Positions 5,997 through 27,569 of a stretch of 64,000 bases of DNA are shown here, one piece after another. The notes under the pieces are model-generated. The model was given only the letters and a program-made list of their open reading frames with translations, made no database searches and was not told the origin of the DNA. This stretch comes from Mycobacterium heckeshornense (GTDB lineage Bacteria; Actinomycetota; Actinomycetes; Mycobacteriales; Mycobacteriaceae), in the NCBI RefSeq assembly GCF_016592155.1, contig NZ_AP024237.1:496001-560000 (forward strand), given 5' to 3'. The first letter of the stretch is position 1, and each line of letters begins with the position of its first letter. The position numbers and the translations under genes were made by a program.

Positions 5997-7143
5997 GGCG
6001 GCGATCGTCGGGATTGGCGCCACCGACTTTTCAAAAGACTCCGGCCGCAGTGAACTGCGGCTGGCCGCCGAGGCAGTTCAAGACGCACTTGATGACGCCG
6101 GGCTGAGCCCGTCCGACGTCGACGGGCTGACCACGTTCACGATGGACAGCAACACCGAGATCGCCGTCGCGCGGGCGGCAGGCATCGGCGAGTTGACGTT
6201 CTTCTCCAAGGTTCATTACGGCGGCGGCGCGGCGTGCGCGATCATCCAGCAGGCGGCGATTGCCGTCGCCACCGGGGTGGCCAATGTTGTTGTGGCGTAT
6301 CGGGCATTTAACGAGCGCTCCGGAATGCGATTCGGCCAGGTACAGACCCGACTGACAGAGAACGCCGATTCCACCGGTGTGGACAACTCGTTCTCGTATC
6401 CGCACGGTTTATCCACGCCGGCCGCGCAGGTCGCGATGATCGCCAGGCGTTACATGCACCTGTCGGGAGCGACCAGCCGCGACTTCGGTGTGATCTCGGT
6501 GGCGGACCGCAAACACGCCGCCAGGAATCCAAAGGCTTACTTCTACGAAAAGCCGATAACGATTGAGGATCACCAGAATTCGCGCTGGATCGCTGAGCCC
6601 CTGCGGCTGCTGGACTGCTGCCAGGAGACCGATGGCGCCGTCGCGATCGTGGTGACGTCGGTCGAACGTGCCAAGGATCTCAAGCACCGGCCGGCCGTTG
6701 TTGAGGCCGCCGCTCAAGGCTCCAGCCCCGACCAGTACACGATGGTCAGTTACTACCGGCCCGAGCTCGACGGCCTACCCGAGATGGGCTTGGTCGGCCG
6801 GCAACTCTGGGCGCAGTCCGGTCTGGGGCCCGAGGATATCCAGACCGCGATCCTCTACGACCACTTCACCCCGTTCACGCTGATCCAGTTGGAGGAGCTC
6901 GGTTTCTGCGGCAAAGGCGAAGCCAAGGACTTCATCGCCGACGGCGCGATCGAGATCGGGGGCCGGCTGCCCATCAACACACATGGCGGGCAGCTCGGCG
7001 AAGCCTACATTCACGGCATGAACGGCATCGCCGAAGGGGTGCGCCAACTTCGGGGCACCTCGGTGAACCAGGTCCCGAACGTCGAGCATGTCTTGGTGAC
7101 CGCCGGCACCGGTGTGCCGACGTCCGGCCTCATTCTGGGCTAA
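5983..7143 (+). CDS. ltp2: Ltp2, steroid side-chain retro-aldolase (thiolase fold)
   Basis: A 386-residue thiolase-fold protein of the SCP-x/lipid-transfer type. With the DUF35 domain of ChsH2 it cleaves 17-hydroxy-3-oxo-pregnene-carboxyl-CoA to androstenedione and propionyl-CoA. The start MLSGKAAIVGIGATDFSKDS and the C-terminal LPINTHGGQLGEAYIHGMNG match the family; the classical thiolase nucleophile Cys is not obvious, as expected for this aldolase. ATG 5983 is preferred over in-frame starts from 5935 because it gives the family length. It is the last gene of the cyp125 operon; a hairpin-flanked DUF559 gene follows 20 bases after the stop. Confidence 0.94.
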   Translation: MLSGKAAIVGIGATDFSKDSGRSELRLAAEAVQDALDDAGLSPSDVDGLTTFTMDSNTEIAVARAAGIGELTFFSKVHYGGGAACAIIQQAAIAVATGVANVVVAYRAFNERSGMRFGQVQTRLTENADSTGVDNSFSYPHGLSTPAAQVAMIARRYMHLSGATSRDFGVISVADRKHAARNPKAYFYEKPITIEDHQNSRWIAEPLRLLDCCQETDGAVAIVVTSVERAKDLKHRPAVVEAAAQGSSPDQYTMVSYYRPELDGLPEMGLVGRQLWAQSGLGPEDIQTAILYDHFTPFTLIQLEELGFCGKGEAKDFIADGAIEIGGRLPINTHGGQLGEAYIHGMNGIAEGVRQLRGTSVNQVPNVEHVLVTAGTGVPTSGLILG

Positions 7144-7164
7144 CGATTTCTCGCCCTTCCCGCT

Positions 7165-7226
7165 CGAACGTGACGCTACAGTCACGCTCGGCTTCGAACG
7201 TGACTGCAACGTCACTCTGAAGTGAC
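7165..7226. repeat. Left flank hairpin repeats of DUF559 cassette 1
   Basis: Two units of the form CGAACGTGAC-N6-GTCAC, with GTGAC arms starting at 7170 and 7200, exactly 30 bases apart; each can fold as a 5-bp stem with a 6-base loop. A third GTGAC (7222-7226) pairs with the GTCAC at 7211-7215. The same unit occurs twice on the other side of the nuclease gene (8089-8147), again at 30-base spacing. Just downstream of ltp2 these could also act in transcription termination. Confidence 0.75.
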
Positions 7227-7258
7227 TAGGTTCCCGTGCCCTGGCACGCTGGCCGGTC

Positions 7259-8098
7259 ATGGGGGAACCGTTTATCGGCAGTGAGGCAGTGATTTCCGGC
7301 GTGACCACCCACAACGAGCTGCGCCGCCGGTATAGGCGCGTGTTCCGCGATGTCTATGTCAGCGGCGGCACGGAGCTGACTGCGGCAGTGCGTGCGAAAG
7401 CCGGATGGTTGTGGTCGCGGCGGCGCGGCGTGGTCGCGGGATTCTCGGCGTCTGCCCTGTACGGCAGCAAGTGGGTGGATGCTCGTCAGCCAGCGGAGCT
7501 AATTCACGACAACCGGCATCGACTGCCCGGTATCCAGGTATGGGGCGATCACCTTCAGCCCGACGAAGTCCGGCTTATCGACGGCATTCCGGTCACCACG
7601 CCGCCAAGAACAGCGCTAGATCTCGCATGTTGGTATCCCACCCTGACGGCAGTACCTGCCATCGACGCACTGGCCCGCGCATGCGAACTCAAACTCGCCG
7701 ATGTCGACTTGCTTGTCCAGCGTCACCGGGGCCGACGAGGTCTTCAGCAGGCTCGAGAATCACTAGAGCTCGTGGATGCCGGTGCCCAGTCACCGAAGGA
7801 AAGCTGGCTGCGGGTGATCCTGATGCAGGCCGGTCTACCCAGACCGCAGGCCCAGATCCCGGTCTACAGCGGCTTCGGCGACGTGATCGCCTATCTGGAT
7901 ATGGGGTGGGAAGACGCCAAGGTCGCCGTCGAGTACGACGGCGACCATCACCGCAGCGATCGGTCCCAATACTTCTGGGACATCCGTCGGCTGGAGATGT
8001 TAGAGCGTCGTGGCTGGATCGTCGTCCGGGTCGTGACGACTGATCGGCCGGCCGACATCATCCGCCGTGTCCGCGCCGCGCTTGCTCACCGAACGTGA
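7259..8098 (+). CDS. DUF559-family protein with AbiEi-like N-terminus
   Basis: A 279-residue protein. Residues about 5-70 look like the winged-helix type IV antitoxin (AbiEi) N-terminal domain (SEAVISGVTTHNELRRRYRR, then SASALYG). The C-terminal third is a DUF559/Vsr-like PD-(D/E)xK nuclease: Glu181 in SPKESWLRVILMQAGLP, Asp214 in YLDMGW, and Glu225, Asp227 and His230-231 in VEYDGDHH. The final codons CGA ACG TGA lie in the flanking hairpin repeat. It is clearly homologous to the 26637-27476 product: same length, shared blocks such as MGEPFIGSEAV, WLWSRRRGV and EYDGDHH or EYEGDHH. Biological role unknown; a DNA-nicking or cassette-homing function is only an inference. It shares no operon logic with the sterol genes. 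Confidence 0.85.
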   Translation: MGEPFIGSEAVISGVTTHNELRRRYRRVFRDVYVSGGTELTAAVRAKAGWLWSRRRGVVAGFSASALYGSKWVDARQPAELIHDNRHRLPGIQVWGDHLQPDEVRLIDGIPVTTPPRTALDLACWYPTLTAVPAIDALARACELKLADVDLLVQRHRGRRGLQQARESLELVDAGAQSPKESWLRVILMQAGLPRPQAQIPVYSGFGDVIAYLDMGWEDAKVAVEYDGDHHRSDRSQYFWDIRRLEMLERRGWIVVRVVTTDRPADIIRRVRAALAHRT

Positions 8099-8147
8099 CA
8101 GTGCAGTCACCCCCGCATTCGATCGTGACCGCAGCGTCACGCTCGGC
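8089..8147. repeat. Right flank hairpin repeats of DUF559 cassette 1
   Basis: Two CGAACGTGAC/CGATCGTGAC-N6-GTCAC units with GTGAC starting at 8095 and 8125 (30-base spacing), followed by GCTCGGC as after the first left-hand unit. The stop codon of the DUF559 gene (8096-8098) lies within the first unit. Confidence 0.75.
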
Positions 8148-8158
8148 CGGACAGGAAC

Positions 8159-9028
8159 TCACGCCGGCACCAACTCTACCCCGCTGAGCACCACCGAGTT
8201 GTCGCGGGCGGGCGCCACCACACTGGCCAACAATCGGTCGTCGTCTTTCCAAATCGCGACGCTGAGCTTTTCACCAGGGAACGCGACACCGGAAAACCGT
8301 GCGCCGTAGGAAGCGACGGCACCGGCATTGCCATCGAGTACAGTGTCGACCATCGCCTTGCACGTCATGCCGTAGGTGCATAACCCGTGCAGGATCGGGC
8401 GCGGAAAGCCTGCAGCGGCGGCGAATTCGGGATCGGAATGCAGCGGATTGCGGTCGCCGCAGAGCCGGTACAGCAGCGCCTGCTGCGGCAGCACCGGGAT
8501 GTCGACCTCGATGTCCGGCGCCCGCTCCGGCGCCGCGACTGACGACCCGCCCCCTGAGGGCCCGCGCTCGCCGCCGAATCCGCCCTCGCCGCGGGCGAAA
8601 ATCGAGCGCCGCTGCGTCCACAACAAGGCTCCGTCCGACGTGGTCACCGATGTCTCCAGCACGACCACCGCGGCCTTGCCCTTGTCCCATACCTCGACGA
8701 TTTTGCTGAGAGCACGAGCGCTGCCCGTCGGCGGCAGTGGGGCCGGCACGCTCACTTGCTCGGAGGCATGCAGGATCTTCGCCAGGTCGATCTGGACGCC
8801 TGGCCAGCTGACCTTCGGTGGCTCGATCTGGTGAAACGACGCCGCCACGCAGCCGAATGTCGGCAGAACCTGGGGAGTATGGTCACGCACGTAGCTGAGC
8901 TCACGTGGGCTGACCGGGTCTGCGCCGGCCCCCAGAGCCAGGTTGTAGAGCTGCACATCCGTTGCCGTCCACGAGAATTCAACAGCCCCGAATTCGGCAC
9001 CAAGTGCAACAGCCGGATCGATGGGCAT
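8159..9028 (-). CDS. chsH3: ChsH3-type 2-enoyl-CoA hydratase (Rv3538-like, double hotdog)
   Basis: A 289-residue MaoC-type hydratase 2. The C-terminal half carries the hydratase motif YRLCGDRNPLHSDPEFAAAAGFPRPILHG (Asp and His catalytic pair) at about residues 200-230. The N-terminal half is the degenerate hotdog (PTFGCVAASFH). Members near kstD hydrate side-chain enoyl-CoA intermediates. The start lies two bases after the kstD stop, so it is the second gene of the kstD operon under the KstR box at 10727. A glycine-rich linker (GGFGGERGPSGGGSS) joins the two halves. Confidence 0.88.
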   Translation of the reverse strand: MPIDPAVALGAEFGAVEFSWTATDVQLYNLALGAGADPVSPRELSYVRDHTPQVLPTFGCVAASFHQIEPPKVSWPGVQIDLAKILHASEQVSVPAPLPPTGSARALSKIVEVWDKGKAAVVVLETSVTTSDGALLWTQRRSIFARGEGGFGGERGPSGGGSSVAAPERAPDIEVDIPVLPQQALLYRLCGDRNPLHSDPEFAAAAGFPRPILHGLCTYGMTCKAMVDTVLDGNAGAVASYGARFSGVAFPGEKLSVAIWKDDDRLLASVVAPARDNSVVLSGVELVPA

Positions 9029-25386: not shown

Positions 25387-26598
25387 ATGACTGAAGCGAT
25401 CGCAATTCCTGACGTAGACCTGACCGACGGCCAGTTCTACGCCAGCGGGGAAGCCCGGGCTGCATACCGCTGGATGCGGGCCAACCAGCCGGTGTTTCGC
25501 GACCGAAACGGTCTGGCCGCCGCGTCGACATACCAGGCCATCATCGACGCCGAGCGCAACCCGGAACTGTTCTCCAACAGCGGCGGCATCCGGCCCGACC
25601 AGGACGCGCTGCCGATGATGATCGACATGGATGACCCACCACATCTGTTGCGGCGCAAGCTCGTCAACGCCGGCTTTACCCGAAAGCAGGTGAAGGACAA
25701 GGAACCGTCGATCGCCGAGCTCTGCGACATGCTCATCGACGCCGTGTGTGAACGCGGCGAGTGCGACTTTGTCCGCGACCTCGCCGCGCCGCTGCCGATG
25801 GCGGTTATCGGCGACATGCTCGGAGTGCGCCCAGAGCAGCGCGACATGTTCCTCAAGTGGTCCGACGATCTGGTGTCATTCCTCAGTTCCCATGTGTCGC
25901 AAGAGGACTTCCAGGTCACGATGGATGCCTTCGCTGCCTACAACGACTTCACCAGGGCCACGATTGCCGCGCGTCGGCAAGAGCCTGCCGACGACCTGAT
26001 CAGCGTGCTGGTGAGTTCTGAAGTCGACGGGGAGCGGCTGAGCGACGACGAGCTCGTCATGGAAACACTGCTGATCCTCATCGGCGGCGACGAGACCACC
26101 CGACACACACTCTCCGGCGGCACCGAGCAGCTGCTGCGCAACCGCGAGCAGTGGGACATGCTGCGGCGTGATCCGGATCGGCTGCTGCCCGGGGCCATCG
26201 AGGAGATGCTGCGCTGGACGTCGCCAGTGAAGAACATGTGCCGCACGCTGACCGCGGACACCGAGTTCCACGGCACCCAGCTGCACAAGGGCGAAAAGTT
26301 GATGTTGCTCTTCGAGTCGGCCAACTTCGACGAAGCGGAATTCGATGAACCGGAGCGCTTCGACATCACCCGGAACCCCAACAGCCACTTGGCGTTCGGT
26401 TTCGGTACGCATTTCTGCCTCGGCAATCAGCTGGCCCGCTTGGAGCTCACACTGATGACGCGGCGGGTGCTCGAACGACTACCCGATCTGCGGTTGGCCT
26501 CCGGCGGCCAGCTGCCGCTGCGTCCGGCGAATTTCGTCAGCGGCCTGGAGTCAATGCCGGTGGTATTCACACCGACAAAGCCGCTGCGCCGAACGTGA
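25387..26598 (+). CDS. cyp142: CYP142, cholesterol C26-monooxygenase
   Basis: Second P450 able to oxidise the sterol side-chain terminus, with opposite stereochemistry to CYP125 in characterised mycobacteria. It has 403 residues: I-helix LIGGDETTRHTL, EEMLRW (ExxR), and the heme loop LAFGFGTHFCLGNQLAR with Cys344. ATG 25387 follows GGGGAGG. The last residues PLRRT and the stop codon are made by the hairpin repeat (CGCCGAACGTGA) that borders the DUF559 cassette, so the native C-terminus appears to have been replaced. This is far from the heme and probably harmless. Confidence 0.94.
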   Translation: MTEAIAIPDVDLTDGQFYASGEARAAYRWMRANQPVFRDRNGLAAASTYQAIIDAERNPELFSNSGGIRPDQDALPMMIDMDDPPHLLRRKLVNAGFTRKQVKDKEPSIAELCDMLIDAVCERGECDFVRDLAAPLPMAVIGDMLGVRPEQRDMFLKWSDDLVSFLSSHVSQEDFQVTMDAFAAYNDFTRATIAARRQEPADDLISVLVSSEVDGERLSDDELVMETLLILIGGDETTRHTLSGGTEQLLRNREQWDMLRRDPDRLLPGAIEEMLRWTSPVKNMCRTLTADTEFHGTQLHKGEKLMLLFESANFDEAEFDEPERFDITRNPNSHLAFGFGTHFCLGNQLARLELTLMTRRVLERLPDLRLASGGQLPLRPANFVSGLESMPVVFTPTKPLRRT

Positions 26599-26647
26599 AA
26601 CCTTGGTGAGCATTCGGCCGAAAATTCGCAACAGTTTCACGTTCGGC
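26588..26647. repeat. Hairpin repeat at the 3' side of DUF559 cassette 2
   Basis: Perfect 14-base arms GCCGAACGTGAAAC (26588-26601) and GTTTCACGTTCGGC (26634-26647) enclose 32 bases including CGGCCGAAAATTCGCAACA. The cyp142 stop lies in the left arm and the DUF559 gene stop in the right arm, so the hairpin also separates two convergent genes and may terminate both. A second copy in the same orientation lies at 27513-27569. Confidence 0.85.
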
Positions 26648-27476
26648 GATCCCATGCTGCTGATACTCGCCGGATAATGCCGGCTTCGGTGTCCTCGGCC
26701 GTGACGCGAACGTCGATCCAGCCGAGATCTGTCAACGCATCGGCGCGGCGGATGTCGTGGTTGAACTGGCGTCGATTCATCCAGTGGTGGTCGCCCTCGT
26801 AGTCAACCCCTACTTTGATGTGGTCCCAGCCCATGTCGACAACGGCGACGAGCTGGCCGTATTCGTCGTACACCGGGATCTGGGTCTGCGGGGCAGGAAA
26901 ACCGGCCCGTATCAACAGCAGTCGCAGCCACGTCTCCCGCGGAGACTCGGCCCCAGAATCGACGAGGTCTAGCGCGACGCGGGCATTTCGGATGCCGCGG
27001 CGGCCCTTGTACCTCTCGGTCAGCAACTCGACGTCGGCCAGCTTGAGGCGTGTGGCTCGGGCGAGGGCATCGATCATCGCGACCGCCTTGCCGACCGGAT
27101 ACCGGCACGCCAGATCGAGGGCCGTCCGTGCTGGTGTAGTCGCGGGCATGCCGGCGACCACCATGACCTCGTCGTCTTCGACGTGATCCGACCAGGTTTG
27201 GATCGACGCCGGGGCGTGGCGGTTGTCGAAGATGATCTCGGCCGGCGCCCGAGCGTCGACCCACTTCGCGCCGTGCAAAGCCGAAGCGGAGCGGCCGGCT
27301 ATCACGCCCCGCCGCCGTGACCACAACCATGCCGCCTTAGCCCGCACTACGGCGCTGATCTCGCTACTAGGTGGTAGGAACACGCCGCGGTGGACAGCAA
27401 CGAATCTGGTGCGCAATTCGTACGGCGTCACCCGGCCGGATGCGACGGCCTCGCTGCCAATAAACGGCTCCCCCAT
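26637..27476 (-). CDS. DUF559-family protein with AbiEi-like N-terminus (paralogue)
   Basis: A 279-residue protein from ATG 27476, the same length as the 7259-8098 product; a TTG at 27506 would add ten residues. N-terminus MGEPFIGSEAVASGRVTPYELRTRF is the AbiEi-like winged helix. The nuclease domain shows SPRETWLRLLLIRAGFP, VAVVDMGWDHIKVGVDYEGDHHWMNRRQF and a C-terminal RVTAEDTEAGIIRRV. Here the motif is VDYEGDHH (Asp for the first Glu) against VEYDGDHH in the paralogue. The last codons CGA ACG TGA lie in the hairpin repeat. Function unknown; a nicking or homing activity is inference. Confidence 0.85.
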   Translation of the reverse strand: MGEPFIGSEAVASGRVTPYELRTRFVAVHRGVFLPPSSEISAVVRAKAAWLWSRRRGVIAGRSASALHGAKWVDARAPAEIIFDNRHAPASIQTWSDHVEDDEVMVVAGMPATTPARTALDLACRYPVGKAVAMIDALARATRLKLADVELLTERYKGRRGIRNARVALDLVDSGAESPRETWLRLLLIRAGFPAPQTQIPVYDEYGQLVAVVDMGWDHIKVGVDYEGDHHWMNRRQFNHDIRRADALTDLGWIDVRVTAEDTEAGIIRRVSAAWDRRT

Positions 27477-27512
27477 AGGCGGGAGTGTGCCGGGCCGGTC
27501 CGACAATCGATC

Positions 27513-27569
27513 GAACGTGAAACTGTGGCGAAAAATCGGCCGAAAATTCGCAACAGTTTCACGTTCGGC
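27513..27569. repeat. Hairpin repeat at the 5' side of DUF559 cassette 2
   Basis: Arms GAACGTGAAAC (27513-27523) and GTTTCACGTTC (27556-27566) enclose a loop with GGCCGAAAATTCGCAACA. Direct repeat of 26591-26648, differing mainly in the left part of the loop. It ends six bases before the echA19 stop codon. Confidence 0.83.

Follow-up and report, generated by a model that had tools for sequence, protein, structure and literature searches.

Does the nuclease-like gene that stands among sterol genes of Mycobacterium heckeshornense form one system with the palindromes that frame it, and is that system mobile? The locus lies in a stretch of 64,000 nt (contig NZ_AP024237.1, positions 496,001 to 560,000), here referred to as the window, and the genes next to it encode ChsH2-like, thiolase, MaoC and FAD-dependent enzymes. 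Two cassettes of such a gene and its palindromes were located in the window (Table 1).

Table 1. Positions of the two nuclease-like genes and their framing palindromes in the window.
Feature	Position (nt)	Strand	Remarks
5′ palindromic element, cassette 1	7165–7219	.	16-bp units 7170–7185 and 7200–7215, 14-bp spacer
Nuclease-like gene, cassette 1	7259–8098	+	279 aa
3′ palindromic element, cassette 1	8090–8145	.	16-bp units 8095–8110 and 8125–8140; holds stop codon 8096–8098
3′-end palindrome, cassette 2	26590–26645	.	sequence unlike cassette 1; overlaps stop codon
Paralogous gene, cassette 2	26637–27476	-	60% identical to cassette 1 gene
5′-end palindrome, cassette 2	27512–27567	.	

The protein of cassette 1 comprises an AbiEi-like N-terminal half (residues ca. 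1–173) and a Vsr/EDxHD-like domain (ca. 176–279). The initial annotation of the window had already read an AbiEi-like N-terminus and a Vsr-like nuclease domain from the letters, with which Pfam, PADLOC and the leading fold matches, i.e. AbiEi and the catalytic domain of the homing endonuclease I-Bth0305I, agree. The Pfam match to PF18741 (MTES_1575) was sub-threshold, with an E-value of 1.6e-7 and 31.8 bits against a cut-off of 38.2, and the same match is precomputed for most of the homologues listed. Residues E181, D214, H231 and D241 showed little or no variation across 59 aligned rows and may correspond to EDxHD. Sequence searches of the PDB returned nothing useful. Relatives of the protein were found in all 60 mycobacterial genomes sampled, with 2–19 matches in each, and were encoded by 8 of 72,556 plasmid records, every one of them less than 60% identical, and by none of 50,697 phage records.

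Exact GTGAC-N6-GTCAC units begin at 7170, 7200, 8095 and 8125, where the initial annotation had put them, with two units per side, a spacing of 30 nt in each pair, and the stop codon of the gene within the third unit. The four units are parts of two larger palindromic elements of ca. 55 bp. The stretch 7170–7215 is among six palindromes scoring at least 44 in the window, and the 3′ element scores lower, at 36. Compared as direct repeats, the two elements are 75% alike over 67 nt, and as inverted repeats 74% complementary over 61 nt. A single unit with at most one mismatch is weakly in excess over chance in the window, with 6 occurrences against a mean of 3.6 expected (11 of 100 shuffles reach 6). 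The pair of units at 30-nt spacing, at most two mismatches allowed, is not explained by chance: it occurs at seven sites in the genome of 4.96 Mb, including the two at the nuclease gene, and the reversed-control pattern occurs at none.

The second cassette (26590–27567) has the same build as the first, with palindromes of another sequence, CGAACGTGAAAC...GTTTCACGTTCG. In total, the genome contains six such nuclease genes, one of which is frameshifted, and five of the six have a palindrome of ca. 60 bp on each side, alike within the locus and different between loci. The paralogue L003 showed no matched pair by alignment and, by eye, a single dyad on the 3′ side. The frameshifted paralogue (L005/L006, G000:C1:1104132-1104952) keeps palindromes on both sides.

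In 29 loci from mycobacterial genomes, among them the truncated L036 and L049 with misplaced gene ends, palindromicity was raised mainly up to ca. 300 bp from the gene, and strong windows were few beyond that distance. When 27 loci were scored singly, these two being left aside, the palindrome score was at least 40 on one side or more in 24, and on both sides in 12. The best dyad of 52–64 bp began 80–120 nt 5′ of the ATG in 48 of 93 loci and within the interval -40 to +20 relative to the stop in 56 of 92, and maxima exceeded the 99% level of 186 gene-internal stretches in 36/93 upstream and 22/92 downstream flanks. Chance hairpins are ruled out by these dyad positions together with the genome-wide pair count and its reversed control. 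The signal was weaker in 59 further paralogues, a hand-picked and non-random set of 60 loci from which L174 was too short to score: one flank lay above the gene-internal 99% level in 17 and both flanks in none, and similarity between the upstream and downstream flanks exceeded the cross-locus 99% level in 13. Outside the genus, within the family, 15 of 26 loci scored at least 40 on one side or more, and six (L322, L324, L328, L332, L337 and L338) on both.

The stretch behind the thiolase gene could be read in 55 of the 60 genomes. The nuclease gene was present there in the same orientation in 20 of the 55 loci, the M. heckeshornense locus included; one of the 20 copies is decayed (G026). In another (L118, G046:C1:4398638-4404938) the gene is split by an insert of ca. 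2.1 kb and both palindromes are intact. In two loci (L141, L142) the gene lies farther from the thiolase gene and in the other orientation, in four (L104, L119, L123, L140) a short spacer devoid of the gene precedes MaoC, and the remaining loci have other sequence or MaoC out of reach. From the sequence comparison, the gene at this locus appears old and mostly vertically inherited, because its orthologues stand behind the same thiolase gene in many species. A fresh insertion into the sterol genes was rejected on the same distribution, and the initial annotation, which had assumed no counterpart at this point of the sterol gene order, was wrong in this respect. Its description of a mobile cassette holds in so far as this class of nuclease gene comes with the hairpins, which are matched at both gene ends, and fails in that a fresh interruption of the sterol genes is not supported.

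Palindromes of the thiolase locus are mostly built of 16+14+16 nt, and they differ between species and agree within them. They were sorted into types, with author-defined labels: A (GTGAC..GTCAC), B (GTGCG..CGCAC), C (GTGAA..TTCAC), D (GTCAC-type; L260, labelled D, may be another type) and E (GCCCG..CGGGC). With this geometry imposed, at least 14 of the 16 pairs form in 16 of the 49 elements upstream of the gene and in 18 of the 48 downstream of it, a level reached by 0.1% of shuffles upstream and 0% downstream; type A cannot reach it because its 6-nt loops do not pair. The locus set consisted of 50 rows, i.e. the M. heckeshornense locus and 49 of 80 named loci. A thiolase match upstream of the gene was found in 47 of the 80, and L209 and L214, whose contigs end there and which have no thiolase match, were added by hand. 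Both flanks could be typed in 42 rows, and in 41 of these they carried the same type, when 10,000 shuffles reached at most 25; the flanks of L228 disagree. Hairpins at the ends of the gene, whose conservation the initial annotation had proposed to look for, are present in these typed orthologues.

The types also follow the protein. On a maximum-likelihood tree of the 48 typed rows (the untypeable L216 and L218 had been dropped beforehand), 6 changes account for the types, compared with 25.8 on average after shuffling; type E forms one group, type A forms one group except for one row, and type C is basal to B and E. The stop codon is usually supplied by the palindrome: in 40 of 48 downstream elements the best pair starts at -4 (TGA in GTGA) or -10 (central TAG), counted from the stop-codon end. 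Type-linked variation (MI/H) was 0.42 in residues 1–40, 0.38 in residues 76–115, 0.33 in residues 41–75 and 116–175, and lowest, 0.19–0.22, in the nuclease domain. Residue 87 is Arg in each of the 17 rows of type B, even in L225, a row separate from the other B rows on the tree, and His in every row of types A, C and E. Such type-linked residues are candidates only, and the MI/H figures are inflated by shared ancestry. The initial suggestion that the nuclease may recognise the hairpins is strengthened, because protein and palindrome appear to share their history.

The same variation, highest in the N-terminal half, would also suit an AbiEi-like autoregulator, with the palindromes as its operators, the dispersed copies as further sites or decoys, and the nuclease domain in another job such as defence. 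AbiEi and Rv2827c are described as binding 23-bp inverted repeats, arranged in tandem, within their own promoters (PMC7319586), and the upstream element of cassette 1 ends ca. 40 nt before the ATG. We regard this explanation as unlikely, however: a matching palindrome also covers the stop codon at the 3′ end, and of the 45 dispersed copies described below, 30 have a stop codon no more than 60 nt away, in a count that scored stop codons. A defence role is further opposed by the four neighbouring genes, which returned no match against PADLOC-DB, with neither a defence gene nor an AbiE-type gene called. Autoregulation through the upstream element may nevertheless operate alongside the mechanism proposed below.

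Pair patterns of types A, B and C were scanned in the 60 genomes, with 2, 2 and 1 mismatches allowed, and matches were obtained in 14, 12 and 14 genomes, respectively, against 1, 0 and 0 genomes for the reversed controls. These copy counts include the flanks of the gene itself. Type A was matched 10 times in G057 and in G048, 9 times in G046, 7 times in G000 and 4 times in G026; type B 15 times in G010, 12 in G017, 8 in G006 and in G058, 7 in G047 and 3 in G031; and type C 11 times in G038 and 5 in G059. Generally, the palindromes that abound in a genome are of the type found at its nuclease gene. Matches in G004 and G024 had 1–2 mismatches and mostly resemble a separate palindrome family, and the G052 matches also have a different appearance. 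At least three pair matches of any type were present in 15 of 16 gene-clade genomes against 6 of 44 others (Fisher p 1.4e-8, relatedness uncorrected), where the gene clade is a hand-made list of the thiolase-locus genomes plus G048. The gene-clade genome without three matches, G023, has palindromes of type D, and the scan covered A, B and C. Units away from such genes, which the initial annotation had taken as an argument against its cassette, do occur, yet the copies are mainly in genomes of the gene clade.

Type C copies were also found in genomes with a B or E gene (G006 5, G047 3, G058 2, G031 2, G030 6), and these may be fossils, as the tree would predict. Against that prediction, G046 and G048, whose gene is of type A, contain 9 and 7 type-B copies, and G051, with no gene at the thiolase locus, contains 9; the type-B copies of these three genomes are unexplained by a simple succession of types. 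Another palindrome family, GTAACGCCACGGCG, scanned with 3 mismatches, is dispersed in 27 of the 60 genomes (reversed control 0), frames other paralogues, and has the same 46-nt core length.

On the basis of a simple gene call from third-position GC, a stop codon is found no more than 60 nt away from 30 of 45 dispersed copies examined; usually the copy follows it by 13–27 nt or contains it. Nine of the 45 have stop codons nearby on either side, and nine overlap a called ORF; 24 belong to three sister species and, being orthologues for the most part, are not independent. One type-A pair (L008, G000:C1:249214-249259) lies inside a called open reading frame of 654 aa. Behind one enoyl-CoA hydratase gene, palindromes of several families were present in 9 of 30 loci read and none was visible in the other 21; the 3′ end of this gene (G000:C1:848160; L289–L318) looks as if it were a favoured landing place for palindromes.

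Such positions, both the 13–27 nt behind stops and the nine copies between two gene ends, are what would be expected if the palindromes were gene-end hairpins, i.e. bidirectional terminators or RNA stabilisers that spread as such, with the nuclease gene merely caught between two of them. The elements do fold strongly as RNA: the minus strand of the cassette 1 5′ element gives a single long hairpin of -39.5 kcal/mol (z -7.8), and the plus strand -25.7 kcal/mol (z -4.4). Terminator calling, which covered the T-run type, however found no hairpin with a T-run at the elements, an Rfam search of 6900–8500 gave no match, and the gene-sense strand folded better in only 9 of 21 cases (Wilcoxon p 0.85), leaving RNA hairpins tuned on that strand unsupported. 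That the sequence type tracks the nuclease clade, and that the 5′ element stands upstream of the gene at a similar distance in many loci, also speak against the idea, which we consider distinctly unlikely. A terminator role is possible for stray copies, and would leave the link to the nuclease unexplained.

In the M. kansasii group, eight of the nine solo sites of M. ostraviense are common to M. attenuatum, and seven of these also to M. innocens. The copies in this group are old and their movement is rare, because most of the solo sites are shared with sister species. The ninth site, close behind the stop codon of another gene, consists of 31 bp of the end of the nuclease gene followed by the 3′ palindrome, and matches the ends of the M. 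ostraviense and M. innocens cassettes at 92–94% identity. The element is absent at that place in the eight other genomes searched. Two of these are from sister species, with upstream flanks 95% and 89% identical and downstream sides that do not align; in G026, similar sequence (70%) is found on the far side of the site, with the element absent. This comparison indicates that the end of a cassette can, by some route, come to lie at a new place. Alternatively, the fragment could be the remnant of a second cassette that was lost. With regard to mobilisation driven by the enzyme, the species-specific copy with its gene end is suggestive.

Candidate empty sites, of the kind that the initial annotation proposed to look for, are the four thiolase loci with gene-less spacers; no clean insertion with target duplication was seen. 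One of these spacers, L119 of G036, keeps a solo, type-C-like palindrome of 26 bp. It could be the unoccupied target of a homing endonuclease gene that inserts into solo palindromes, in which case the frames of the gene would be the target duplication and the dispersed palindromes unoccupied targets; the fold of the catalytic domain of I-Bth0305I points the same way. The palindrome of G036 is, however, equally explained as a remnant after loss of the gene. The gene is moreover framed by two full palindromes and not by two halves, and it is fixed at one place across many species while palindrome copies lie elsewhere, so that homing seems improbable, and the least probable of the explanations considered. 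Within copies, the self-complementarity of the spacer was no higher than across copies, and compensation between the loops of type-A units was weak, with 3.29 of 6 matches in the same copy against a permuted mean of 2.84 (41 copies; 73 of 5000 permutations reach 3.29).

The account that we favour, and hold to be somewhat more probable than its negation, is that nuclease and palindromes are a two-part system that behaves like REPIN/RAYT with an unrelated enzyme, and that is old and slow. In the mechanism proposed, the AbiEi-like N-terminal half would recognise and bind the 16-bp palindromes, and the Vsr/EDxHD domain would cut or nick them. Repair from another copy would keep the palindromes of one genome alike. 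Occasionally it would also seed a palindrome, or the end of a cassette, at a fresh site, in many cases shortly after a stop codon, where new copies would be tolerated. The nuclease gene itself would be passed on vertically for long periods. The wider proposal of a Vsr/EDxHD-driven, REPIN-like class, in which enzyme and palindrome change specificity together, cut-and-copy keeps the copies alike and older types persist as fossils, is put forward tentatively, as something we would not quite call probable.

With REPIN/RAYT the cassettes share an enzyme gene that stands between palindromes of a kind also scattered over the genome. Further likenesses, on what the sources report, are dispersed nonautonomous paired palindromes of low activity and an enzyme gene that is vertically inherited and described as not seen on plasmids (PMC8049555, PMC3733652). 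The cassette system is not a member of REPIN/RAYT, because its enzyme, AbiEi-like with a Vsr/EDxHD domain, is not the tyrosine (Y1) transposase of that system. The copies are also fewer, with ca. 3–15 pair matches per genome against at least 69 REPINs reported per E. coli genome (PMC8049555). A constant tag comparable to the GTAG/CGTC tag was not noticed, by eye only, in the 27 scored and the thiolase-locus sequences. REP-like sequences without tags have been reported by others in M. tuberculosis, and one REP class is described as being without a known transposase (PMC3733652).

EDxHD homing endonucleases such as I-Bth0305I and the Vsr/DUF559 nucleases have the fold of the C-terminal domain in common with the protein, which differs from them by its AbiEi-like N-terminal half and by the matched palindromes at both gene ends; unlike with the homing enzymes, no intron or intein context was noticed here. 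With the AbiE type IV toxin-antitoxin systems an AbiEi-type protein is shared (PADLOC, fold match), whereas an adjacent gene for an AbiEii nucleotidyltransferase toxin is lacking and a nuclease-like domain is fused. The ‘novel Vsr-REase’ domain of MTES_1575 is shared at the sub-threshold level of the Pfam match to PF18741, whereas MTES_1575 itself is described as a large protein in which HEPN, helicase and further domains occur (PMC3710099).

The literature searched, with most subscription papers outside it, contained no DUF559 protein associated with palindromes, no nuclease paired with mycobacterial REP-like elements and no role for the mycobacterial relatives of this protein. If the favoured account is true, the protein family would gain a substrate, and mycobacteria would gain a REP-like repeat family with a dedicated enzyme. 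The natural enzyme and site pairs of several types would then lend themselves to the study of how DNA specificity evolves.
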